Shown here: in pieces, positions 6,434-36,631 of the stretch
How the letters are laid out: every line of letters starts with the position of its first letter
Position numbering within the stretch: position 1 is the first letter of the stretch
Origin: Nitrospirota bacterium
GTDB lineage: Bacteria > Nitrospirota > Thermodesulfovibrionia > Thermodesulfovibrionales > UBA1546
Assembly: GCA_009773185.1 (NCBI GenBank)
Contig: WPIF01000019.1
Span: 1-52,628, forward strand
Length of the DNA: 52,628 bases
Direction of reading: 5' to 3'
Notes under the pieces: generated by a model
Database searches by the model: none
What the model was told of the DNA's origin: nothing
The model's input: only the letters and a program-made list of their open reading frames with translations
Program-made: the position numbers and the translations under genes

Positions 6434-6457
6434 TTTTGGAATCTTTCCCGGGATGGA

Positions 6458-6583
6458 GACAGGGGACAGTATTTGAGCGGTTTTATTTTGCCGATATTCC
6501 TATAATAAATGTATATAAAAGCGAGAGGCAAAATTCCTCGGAGGGCGGTAGCCCGAGAATGAGCGATAATATTGTCCCCTGTC
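6458..6583 (+). repeat. Dispersed structured element, copy A
   Basis: Outer arms 6458-6473 and 6568-6583 form a 16-bp stem with one G-T pair. Inside are the conserved TTGAGCGGTTTT motif, a second stem (6485-6492 with 6527-6534, ATTTTGCC/GGCAAAAT), a third hairpin (6538-6556, CTC..GGGC-GGTA-GCCC-GAG) and the conserved GAATGAGCGA motif. Copies B and C share the conserved motifs but use different sequences for the stems, which stay paired. It lies between ricT and metG, on the strand opposite to them. Confidence 0.8.
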
Positions 6584-6597
6584 TTAGAAATCATTTT

Positions 6598-31943: not shown

Positions 31944-31980
31944 CACACACCTCCAATATTAACAATAGCTTTAAGACAGC

Positions 31981-32089
31981 GGGCACAGCGCTTTCGCTCA
32001 TTCTCGGCCCCGATAAATCGGGACCTCCGAGGTGAACTCTGTCCCGCCTGAAGGCTGGCAGAATTCAAAACCGCTCAAGTGCAATGCCC
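31981..32089 (-). repeat. Dispersed structured element, copy C
   Basis: On the minus strand it reads TTGAGCGGTTTT, a stem GAATTCTG/CAGAGTTC (one G-T pair) capped by GCC-TTCA-GGC, CCTCGGAG, hairpin CCCGA-TTTA-TCGGG, then CGAGAATGAGCGA. The outer arms GGGCATTGCAC and GCGCTGTGCCC pair imperfectly. The stem sequences differ from copies A and B while pairing is retained. It lies just upstream of the Tam-like gene, in its sense direction. Confidence 0.72.
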
Positions 32090-32110
32090 TCTATCTATCC
32101 TGCATTCAAA

Positions 32111-32144
32111 ATAAAAAGGCCACGGGGTTTATTCCGTGGCCTTT
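32111..32144 (-). terminator. Rho-independent terminator of the candidate small RNA
   Basis: On the minus strand AAAGGCCACGG and CCGTGGCCTTT form an 11-bp stem with an 8-nt loop, followed by TTTTTAT. The A-rich 5' flank means it may work in both directions. Confidence 0.85.
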
Positions 32145-32260
32145 GAAGTTTTTCTTATTATCCGACTAACAGTTAATAGAATCCCCCTTCAGCCACGGCA
32201 CCTATGTGCCAGGCGTTCTTAAGGACGGCCTTATTAATCAGCATCGGATTGTAAAACATG
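32112..32260 (-). ncRNA. Candidate small non-coding RNA, about 150 nt
   Basis: A consensus promoter upstream and a strong terminator downstream enclose DNA with no credible ORF. The predicted transcript folds as a rod: GTTTT/AAAAC, ATCCGA/TCGGAT, TTAATA/TATTAA, GCC/GGC and an apical GGCAC-ATAG-GTGCC hairpin, in nested order. A long rod with internal bulges is reminiscent of 6S RNA, but I could not match 6S core sequence, so the identity is open. It lies in the gap between the AlkD-like and Tam-like genes. Confidence 0.62.
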
Positions 32261-34457: not shown

Positions 34458-35516
34458 ATGCCGGAAAAGATACTGGAATCATTTAACGTGAAACATCTGT
34501 CAATCCTTGATGAAAAGGGGGATACTGATGAATCCCTCATGCCTTCCCTGTCAGATACTGATATAAAAATGATGTATGAGTTGCTTGTTCTTTCACGGAC
34601 CTTTGACCACCAGGCCCTTAATCTTCAGAGGGAAGGCAGGATAGGCTCCTATGCGCCTATTTTAGGACAGGAGGCGTCACAGATAGGCAGCGCTTTTGCC
34701 CTTGAGAAAACTGATTGGATATTTCCGTCATTCAGAGAGATAGGTGTTTATATAACGATGGGCTATCCATTGCATATGTTGTTCCAGTACTGGTCAGGAG
34801 ATGAAAGAGGCGTTAAAACTCCTGAGGAGTTGAATATCTTTCCTGTCTGTGTGCCTGTAGGAACACAGGTGCCTCATGCTGCAGGTGCAGCGATGGCAAT
34901 AAAATATAAGAATAAAAGAAAAGCGGTTGCAGCCTATTTCGGTGACGGAGGGACTTCAGAAGGAGATTTCCATGAAGGGATGAATATGGCAGGCGTATTT
35001 AAACTGCCTGTTGTTTTTATCTGCCAGAACAACCACTGGGCAATATCAGTTCCAAGAGAAAAGCAGACTGCATCAAAAACAATTGCTCAAAAGGCATTTG
35101 CATATGGCTTTGAGGGAATTCAGGTTGACGGAAATGATATCTTTGCTGTTTACAAAGCAACAAAAGACGCATTAGACAAGGCAAAAAAGGGTGAAGGCCC
35201 GACACTTATAGAATGTTTTACATACAGGATGTCAGACCATACAACGTCTGATGATGCATCGCGATACAGATTTAAGGAAGAACTTGAGGCCTGGAAACCG
35301 AAAGACCCGATTCTGAGATTGAGGCTGTTCATGGAGAAAAAAGGATTGTGGACAGGGCAGTATCAGAAAGAAGTTGAAGGCAGAGCAAAAGAGGCGGTTG
35401 ATGAAGCTGTGAAAAAAGAAGAGGCAATAGAGCATCCCGAGCCAAAGGATATGTTTACATTTACTTTTGAAAAACTGACGCAGAGACAGACAAAACAAAT
35501 AAGGGATTTTCAGTAA
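34458..35516 (+). CDS. pdhA: Pyruvate dehydrogenase E1 component, alpha subunit
   Basis: Thiamine-diphosphate enzyme subunit that decarboxylates pyruvate. The TPP motif is FGDGGTSEGDFHEGMNMAGVF...NN, and YRMSDHTTSDDASRYR is the phosphorylation-loop region conserved in E1-alpha. Starting at the ATG with AAAGGA gives 352 residues; a longer reading adds 26 residues that do not look like the family. Its stop touches the 5' arm of structured element B, and pdhB follows. Confidence 0.94.
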   Translation: MPEKILESFNVKHLSILDEKGDTDESLMPSLSDTDIKMMYELLVLSRTFDHQALNLQREGRIGSYAPILGQEASQIGSAFALEKTDWIFPSFREIGVYITMGYPLHMLFQYWSGDERGVKTPEELNIFPVCVPVGTQVPHAAGAAMAIKYKNKRKAVAAYFGDGGTSEGDFHEGMNMAGVFKLPVVFICQNNHWAISVPREKQTASKTIAQKAFAYGFEGIQVDGNDIFAVYKATKDALDKAKKGEGPTLIECFTYRMSDHTTSDDASRYRFKEELEAWKPKDPILRLRLFMEKKGLWTGQYQKEVEGRAKEAVDEAVKKEEAIEHPEPKDMFTFTFEKLTQRQTKQIRDFQ

Positions 35517-35644
35517 TGCTGCATGATATTGTGTTTGAGCGGTTTATTTTGCCGATATTCCTAGAGTAAAAATTGTAAAAATAGAGAGGCAAAATCCTCG
35601 GAGCGTAGCGAGAATGAGCGAGAACATTATATCATGCAAAGCAT
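35516..35644 (+). repeat. Dispersed structured element, copy B, between pdhA and pdhB
   Basis: Outer arms ATGCT.GCATGATAT and ATATCATGC..AGCAT pair over about 14 bp with a small bulge. The core has TTGAGCGGTTT, stem ATTTTGCC/GGCAAAAT, hairpin CTC..GC-GTA-GC-GAG and AGAATGAGCGA. The loop of the second stem differs fully from copy A. It begins at the pdhA stop codon and lies in the sense direction of the pdhA-pdhB transcript, so it would be part of that mRNA. Confidence 0.8.
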
Positions 35645-35668: not shown

Positions 35669-36631
35669 ATGCCTAAATTAAACATGGTTCAGGCAATAAA
35701 CCTTGCATTGAAAGAAGAGATGCAGAGGGACAAGAATGTCTTACTGCTCGGAGAGGATGTTGGCAAAGACGGCGGGGTATTCAGGGTTTCAGAGGGGCTG
35801 CTGGAACAGTTTGGCCCTGAGAGAATCATAGATACGCCTCTGGCTGAGTCCGGCATTGTCGGCGCAGCAATAGGAATGGCTGTATACGGTTTAAGGCCTG
35901 TTGCAGAGATTCAGTTCATGGGGTTTATCTATCCTGCCTTAGACCAGATTTTTTCCCATGCCTCAAGGATTCGCTCACGTTCAAGGGGAAGGTTCACATG
36001 CCCTTTGGTCGTCAGGGCCCCGTATGGCGCAGGGATAAAAGCGCCTGAACTTCATTCAGAAAGCACAGAGGCATTGTTCTGTCATATGCCGGGGATAAAG
36101 GTTGTTGTCCCTTCATCTCCTTATAATGCAAAAGGGCTTTTGCTCTCATCAATAAGAGACCCTGACCCTGTAATATTTCTTGAATCAACAAGGCTCTACC
36201 GCTCCATAAAAGAAGAAGTCCCTGAAGGCGAATATTCAATCCCGCTCGGAAAGGCAAGGATTGTTCAGGAGGGAAAAGATGTAACTTTGATTGCATGGGG
36301 AAGTATGCTTCAAAGGGCCTTAAAGGCAGCTGAAGGAATTGATGCAGACATAATTGATTTAATAACCTTAAGCCCTTTTGATGAAGAGGCAATATTTAAG
36401 TCAGTTAAAAAAACAGGCCGTGTCGTGATTATTCATGAGGCCCCAAAGACCTGCGGATTCGGCGCAGAGCTTTCAGCAACTATTGCAGAGGATGCGATGC
36501 TTTACCTTAAAGCCCCGATAATCAGGATTACAGGTTTTGATGCTGTCATGCCTTTTTCAAAGCTTGAAGATTATTACATGCCAACTGCTGAGAGGATTAA
36601 AAAAGGGATTCAAGAGGTGATGAAGTATTAG
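35669..36631 (+). CDS. pdhB: Pyruvate dehydrogenase E1 component, beta subunit
   Basis: Partner of PdhA. It contains LLGEDVGKDGGVFRVSEGL, the E1-beta TPP-contact region, PLAESGIVGAAIGMAVYGLRPVAE(I) and the C-terminal transketolase domain with EAPKTCGFGAELSATI. The 320-residue length fits. The intergenic 152 bp from pdhA is filled by a structured element; otherwise the two genes are one operon. The E3 gene lpd is not in the window. Confidence 0.94.
   Translation: MPKLNMVQAINLALKEEMQRDKNVLLLGEDVGKDGGVFRVSEGLLEQFGPERIIDTPLAESGIVGAAIGMAVYGLRPVAEIQFMGFIYPALDQIFSHASRIRSRSRGRFTCPLVVRAPYGAGIKAPELHSESTEALFCHMPGIKVVVPSSPYNAKGLLLSSIRDPDPVIFLESTRLYRSIKEEVPEGEYSIPLGKARIVQEGKDVTLIAWGSMLQRALKAAEGIDADIIDLITLSPFDEEAIFKSVKKTGRVVIIHEAPKTCGFGAELSATIAEDAMLYLKAPIIRITGFDAVMPFSKLEDYYMPTAERIKKGIQEVMKY

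Follow-up and report, generated by a model that had tools for sequence, protein, structure and literature searches.

The three copies (A, B and C) of a structured repeat present in the window, i.e. in the whole 52,628-nucleotide stretch of Nitrospirota DNA analysed here, belong to one family of repeats of about 90–170 bases that has more than 100 copies in the genome containing the window (G000). The members of this family are probably non-autonomous dispersed palindromic mobile elements, the fold of which is kept by trans-acting recognition of the folded single strand. Under this reading, a putative trans-acting enzyme would recognise the folded single strand, most likely of DNA; the use of the fold by this candidate enzyme would copy or move the element into the gaps between genes, and the recognition itself would keep the shape of the element while the sequences of its stems drift.

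The core pattern CCTCGGAG-N(2-32)-GAATGAGCGA was found 76 times in the 2.79-Mb genome G000, while the reversed control pattern yielded no matches. In all 76 of these core copies GAGCGG (GAGTGG in one case) is present upstream, and the outer arms pair. The covariance model of the family, which was built from 49 copies, detected 112 copies in G000, each aligned with the model from end to end. Measured with their flanks, the 76 core copies are 93–162 nt long, and the extents given by the model reach about 170–190 nt. Within the window the pattern GAGCGGTTT-N-CTCGGAG occurs in exactly three places, which are copies A, B and C, while the shuffles expect none. The sequence-only reading, which had located these three copies and listed their shared letters, was correct in this respect, and the model extents of the copies (Table 1) are slightly longer than it had proposed. 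Its expectation that this genome and its relatives would contain further copies with paired but different stems was also borne out, both by the exact core matches and model hits in G000 and by more copies in the related genomes.

Table 1. Coordinates of the three copies of the element in the window and of their parts.
Feature	Position	Strand	Basis or remark
Copy A, whole	6453..6586	+	covariance model, 122.9 bits
Copy A, P1 5′ arm, 18 nt	6457..6474	+	sequence, pairing count
Copy A, conserved GAGCGG	6475..6480	+	GC pairs with GC; GA opposite GA of GAGCGA (tandem G·A, by inspection)
Copy A, P2 5′ arm ATTTTGCC	6485..6492	+	sequence, fold count
Copy A, P2 3′ arm GGCAAAAT	6527..6534	+	sequence, fold count
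Copy A, conserved CCTCGGAG	6536..6543	+	CTCG pairs with CGAG 6554-6557; GAG bulge
Copy A, variable P3 tip hairpin GGC/GCC	6544..6553	+	sequence, fold count
Copy A, conserved GAATGAGCGA	6557..6566	+	core pattern
Copy A, P1 3′ arm	6567..6584	+	P1 pairing count
Copy B, whole	35515..35641	+	covariance model, 124.4 bits
Copy B, P1 5′ arm	35519..35536	+	sequence, P1 pairing count
Copy B, P1 3′ arm	35622..35639	+	sequence, P1 pairing count
Copy C, whole	31974..32098	-	covariance model, 72.1 bits
Copy C, P1 5′ arm, 15/18 paired	32077..32094	-	sequence, arm pairing
Copy C, P1 3′ arm	31976..31993	-	sequence, arm pairing
Copy C, conserved CCTCGGAG	32025..32032	-	GAGCGGTTT-N-CTCGGAG match

Read from 5′ to 3′, the folded strand consists of the first P1 arm, GAGCGG, the P2 hairpin, CCTCGGAG, P3, AATGAGCGA and the second P1 arm. 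The resulting shape is a three-way junction, in which the outer stem P1 (18–20 bp) carries a long variable P2 and a short P3. The loop that closes P1 is internal and conserved, with GAGCGG lying opposite AATGAGCGA; by inspection, the GA of GAGCGG faces the GA of GAGCGA in a tandem G·A step, next to which there are two G–C pairs. The P2 stem is 7–9 bp long and in G000 usually reads TTTTGCC/GGCAAAA, the length of its loop being very variable, and in P3 the invariant CTCG pairs with the invariant CGAG across a GAG bulge below a variable tip. Conservation is confined to the junction letters and the pairing, while the sequences of the stems and tips change freely. In all three window copies either strand folds better than nearly all of the shuffles, as RNA as well as DNA, and the strand bearing GAGCGG is the more stable of the two in each copy.

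A C-rich hairpin was found in the P2 of 11 of the 76 G000 copies. Since this hairpin occurs mostly inside the element (8 cases inside, 2 outside), we treat it as a variant of P2 and not as a proven foreign insert. The tip loops of P2 and P3 are often ACANGGATGT or have GGA in the loop in the genomes G140, G037 and G121 (L413-L446) and in the copies from Latescibacterota and Gemmatimonadetes. Such loops resemble the CsrA/RsmE binding consensus; a general CsrA/RsmE-binding function of the element was rejected because tips of this kind are not the rule in G000.

The observation that the stems differ in sequence yet remain paired, made initially on the three window copies, proved to be real. In a 36-pair structure compared over 49 copies, standard pairs make up 95.0% of the cells, while the shuffled controls reach 80.1 ± 0.5%, and the pairing drops to 32–52% when the partner is slid by 1–3 columns. 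There are 246 double-changed cells in this alignment versus 70 ± 6 after shuffling, and both sides have changed in 27 of the pairs; none of the 500 shuffles reached the observed number of paired cells, of double-changed cells or of pairs changed on both sides. In the larger set of 76 copies, each position of the 18-bp P1 forms a standard pair in 55 to 75 copies. This pairing holds in the correct register and not in the neighbouring ones, although the 76 copies have 75 distinct P1 5′ arms, with 7 differences on average over the 18 positions.

Covariation alone cannot tell DNA from RNA as the folded molecule. The wobble pairs are informative about the strand: a G·T pair on one strand is an A·C mismatch on the other, and wobbles thus show which strand is selected. 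In the P1 stems of the 76 G000 copies there are 156 G·T pairs and only 23 A·C, with G·T being more frequent than A·C in 68 copies and less frequent in 2. The ratio is 96:17 in other Nitrospirota and 19:3 in other phyla. This large excess of G·T over A·C in P1 shows that selection acts on the strand GAGCGG...GAATGAGCGA and, judging from the wobbles, marks it as the strand that is folded.

The same data bear on the idea that the copies are the remains of an old mobile element and that template switching during replication corrects the arms of such quasi-palindromes, no protein being involved. Arms that differ strongly and stay complementary (75 distinct 5′ arms among 76 copies) would be expected in this case, and the remnants of orphan arms near a few copies (L057, L064, L335) agree with it. 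Arm correction, however, would not give 156 G·T versus 23 A·C, and it leaves unexplained the unpaired junction letters that are invariant in all the copies and across phyla. We therefore consider this passive origin of the pairing highly improbable.

Nearly all the G000 copies are intergenic, a typical copy being at most about 20 nt away from the stop codon that precedes it and 10–60 nt from the next gene. In the surveyed regions of G000 the folded strand is antisense to the co-directional neighbours in 33 cases and sense in 6. With a cruder gene caller the antisense to sense ratio in G000 was 35:14; it was 13:1 in the congeners, 34:9 on contigs of other Nitrospirota and 26:7 in G140, G037 and G121; outside Nitrospirota a small sample (3:8) had no antisense bias. 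Copy A, whose neighbours are a PSP1-domain gene and the methionyl-tRNA synthetase gene of the minus strand, has its folded strand antisense to them, and copies B and C belong to the sense minority. Copy B lies between the E1 alpha gene, which ends at 35516, and the E1 beta gene, which starts at 35669, and is sense to both; these neighbours carry Pfam domains of the two E1 subunits, alpha and beta, of a 2-oxoacid dehydrogenase, in keeping with the original placement of this copy inside a pdhA-pdhB transcript. Copy C is also sense to both of its neighbours, which are a DNA_alkylation-domain gene and a methyltransferase-domain gene of the minus strand. The orientation bias may stem from selection against sense copies in operons or from the strand that is used at insertion. 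A bias with respect to the replication strand, as judged by GC skew, is inseparable from gene direction in the G000 contigs.

These positions bear on the question whether the element is a structured RNA functional for the host, cis-regulatory or stabilising mRNA and kept by selection on the transcript, with a role such as REP or ERIC RNA hairpins can have. Very strong covariation with wobbles on one strand, the short intergenic gaps often lying just 3′ of a stop codon, the sense orientation of copy B within the E1 alpha–E1 beta pair and the six orthologous copies that are almost unchanged between species would all be in line with such a role. A cis-acting mRNA structure would nevertheless need to be mostly sense, and in G000 as well as in other Nitrospirota most copies with co-directional neighbours have the folded strand opposite to both of these genes, so this is not the general role of the element. 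The unrelated neighbour genes, as well as the empty sites, the inversion at the same site and the replacement by palindromes described below, also misfit a fixed regulatory role, and a host RNA function thus appears unlikely. The position of the folded strand, mostly opposite to the transcript, makes single-stranded DNA more likely than RNA as the folded molecule.

The orthologous sites were compared in two congeners, of which G001 is mostly 91–97% and G002 mostly 88–96% identical over the regions used. Empty orthologous sites were found both in G001 (L231:2399 and L232:18889) and in G002 (L234:14070 and L235:1734). At 14 sites the element is present in both of the genomes compared; P1 is nearly unchanged at 6 of them, and at the other 8 a different copy is present, inverted in 4 cases. 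In G001 and G003 copy C is inverted compared with its orientation in G000 and G002, and four sites besides that of copy C have inverted alleles. Copy C is separated from the DNA_alkylation-domain gene by a terminator-like hairpin GGCCACGG...CCGTGGCC with a T-run after it (window 32115-32145, minus strand); this hairpin is kept in both G001 and G002 despite the flip of copy C. Parts of the element may also change separately: at the orthologous sites L025:1404 and L287:3673 of two species P1 is identical and the P2 loop is swapped between the plain and the C-rich hairpin versions, while in the comparison of L234 with L355 one half of the element is conserved and the other half is replaced.

At several sites unrelated palindromic elements replace the family copy in the sister species. 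The replacing palindromes are of the GTCATTCCCG type at L235:1734 and L235:12016 and C-rich at L231:7856 and L234:1462; the site L235:1734 contains, in three species, no element, the family element and another palindrome. At the site of copy B in G002 and at the L231:6050 site in G001 a GIY-YIG gene (Pfam PF01541) is located between inverted repeats. Small GIY-YIG genes at replaced sites were seen on L252 (G002:C102) and at L347:3139-3664 (G001:C156), the repeats being of the CATTGCGAGGAACGAAGCGACGTGGCAATC and GTTATTCCCGCGCAGGCGGGAATCCAG types. No GIY-YIG gene lies inside a family element, those found being in other palindromic elements, with one near but outside a copy. The site L232:3733 has a larger structured element in place of the family copy. 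This larger element, CTTGAGCGGCATCAG...GGGCGAGTTTCGAGGATGTA...GTAGCAAGCGAAAG, was seen at L346:4230-4510 (minus strand), near position 4800 of L102 and on L412; its outer stems differ but stay paired, and it shares the GAGCGG / AGCGAAAG edges. It replaces the family copy at one G001 site, has no Rfam match and was not found in G000.

In the left flank of one copy, at L335, the new copy begins directly after an orphan P1 arm of an earlier copy. Sequences similar to orphan P1 arms lie 3–52 nt outside complete copies on L057 and L064/L331 (right flanks) and on L335 (left flank), and suggest that earlier insertions may have taken place at the same sites. There is one clear case (L335), together with a few remnants, of a copy inserted into an older one at the P1/core junction, with no systematic enrichment of such insertions. 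From the comparison of the genomes we infer that the turnover would be that of mobile DNA returning again and again to the same gaps between genes. Part of it could stem from recombination between strains that replaces entire intergenic alleles; the sequence adjoining the element also differs between alleles, and clean insertion boundaries were not seen. The sequence-only reading had offered two explanations of the covariation, namely that the copies function as RNA or that the element moves in the form of folded single-stranded DNA. The empty sites, the inversion, the re-use of sites and the patchy occurrence across phyla favour the second of these, while the first, as far as a cis-acting mRNA structure is meant, does not agree with the antisense placement of most copies.

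Some of these changes would also be understandable if the element were a recombination or attachment site read as a folded single strand, similar to integron attC, and underwent exchange or inversion rather than transposition. Integron attC sites are recognised as a folded single strand, are tolerant to sequence changes and have the folded strand antisense to the preceding gene. The family resembles them in its free sequence and in the folded strand being mostly antisense to the preceding gene; the conserved structure and unpaired bases, the variable terminal part, the inversion at the same site, the exchange of whole copies and the swap of P2 within an identical P1 (L025 versus L287) fit as well. 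Inspection of the 76 copies, however, revealed no attC core motif (RYYYAAC/GTTRRRY boxes), the fold is a three-way junction and not one interrupted hairpin, and the copies are scattered among ordinary core genes and do not form cassette arrays. An attachment site of this type is in our opinion quite unlikely. Within the mobile-element reading that we prefer, a bolder version can be put forward tentatively: the family may represent a transposable or homing class defined by the folded three-way junction and not by a sequence, whose copies would be moved or converted by the enzyme in either orientation at fixed intergenic sites, with exchange of stems and tips as modules, and which would have spread across phyla including Parcubacteria.

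The family was detected in 10 of the 118 sampled Nitrospirota genomes (E ≤ 1e-6), and within one genus it is present in G037 and G121 and absent from G026 and G138. In the species scan, contigs labelled Latescibacterota, Gemmatimonadetes, Desulfobacterota, Parcubacteria and others were matched, and many of these cross-phylum matches were confirmed by covariance-model matches and paired P1 arms around the same core. The matches in cultured actinobacteria, Bacillus and haloarchaea lack the fold and were discarded as chance ones. Among the viral contigs there were 24 core-pattern matches, none with the fold, and the plasmid collection contained no match to copy A.

Comparison with Rfam (Rfam 15) gave no matches in the window at gathering thresholds and, with a relaxed E-value, only a chance match outside the element, in agreement with the initial impression that it is not a member of a known family. 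We found no description of the family in the literature; it may be among the 250 mobile/repeat candidates of PMC11109978. The 'mobile/repeat sequence candidates' of that work are multi-copy covarying motifs that are presumed to be selfish, the RNA or DNA form being undecided, and are often, though not always, associated with a transposase, integrase or nuclease gene (PMC11109978). Our family is similar to this class (PMC11109978) in its high copy number per genome, in the covariation of its fold, in the lack of a consistent gene context and in its occurrence in diverse phyla; the gene association, however, was not found for the family copies. MRSC-65-2 is a single long stem with repeated UYCCGG (PMC11109978), in contrast to the three-way junction with GAGCGG, CCTCGGAG and GAATGAGCGA.

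The RPE elements are Rickettsia-specific long stem-loops of 105–146 bp that occur in intergenic regions or in frame in genes (PMC2229807). The family is similar to them in size, long stem-loop and intergenic location, with the mobiliser and target duplication likewise not established for either, but, judging by the published description, differs in being almost all intergenic, in its conserved three-way-junction core and in spanning phyla. ERIC/IRU and YPAL are enterobacterial intergenic elements, and the orientation of ERIC matters for its effect on mRNA (PMC2229807). The intergenic location, the similar size and the RNA or DNA folds are common to them and our family; ERIC, however, has TA ends and target duplications, of which no clear case was seen in the family, and, unlike ERIC and YPAL, the family conserves the pairing and the junction letters while its stems differ. 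Presence or absence at orthologous sites is a feature shared with classical MITEs of the ERIC, Correia and RUP type. REPs are 20–40 bp long, with a tag (GTAG or CGTC) left unpaired at one of their ends, and have RAYT transposases (PMC3733652). Like REPs, the members of the family are high-copy palindromes with conserved structure, located mostly downstream of genes; unlike REPs, they are about 130 bp long (P1 of 18–20 bp inside 93–170 nt) and have no RAYT beside the copies, and the aligned copies have no conserved letters outside P1 that would correspond to a GTAG/CGTC foot tag. The kind of element is already known (MRSC, RPE, ERIC, REP), while the family itself, of which no description was found, appears to be previously uncatalogued. 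It is set apart by the three-way junction with exchangeable arms, by the folded strand defined by wobbles and by the cross-phylum occurrence.

Small palindromic repeats are widespread in bacteria, and what moves them and why their fold is kept is mostly obscure. The present family offers more than 100 copies per genome, a sharp structure, a defined folded strand, a wide distribution and sites that are empty, inverted or replaced in sister species, so that the questions of DNA or RNA and of the enzyme become testable. It may also serve as a warning: strong covariation alone is what new regulatory RNAs are usually recognised by, and yet it can stem from mobile DNA.

With respect to the mobilising enzyme, no gene was found inside the copies or consistently beside them, and no autonomous copy was detected. 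There are three Y1_Tnp (RAYT-type) genes in G000, one of them at a contig end, with no copy within about 1 kb on the available sequence. RAYT/Y1 transposases were rejected as direct hosts of the element, none being near the copies, and neither an IS200/IS605-type nor a REP-type transposase was found attached to them. The direct similarity of the flanks is in weak excess (z = 3.3 at 60 nt), which is possibly due to composition, with no clear target-site duplication, and in a second comparison the left flanks were too diverged in this respect. Two Y1-transposase genes have repeats in the vicinity. On L229 the RAYT-type gene is flanked by an inverted repeat of its own, AAAAGGGGACAGGCTACTTTT / AAAAGTAGCCTGTCCCCTTTT (1430-1450 and 2138-2165) unrelated to the family, and directly upstream of another Y1-transposase gene tandem AGAGAAATTTGAGGGTCAA units, partly masked as N, are located at L230:1165-1416.
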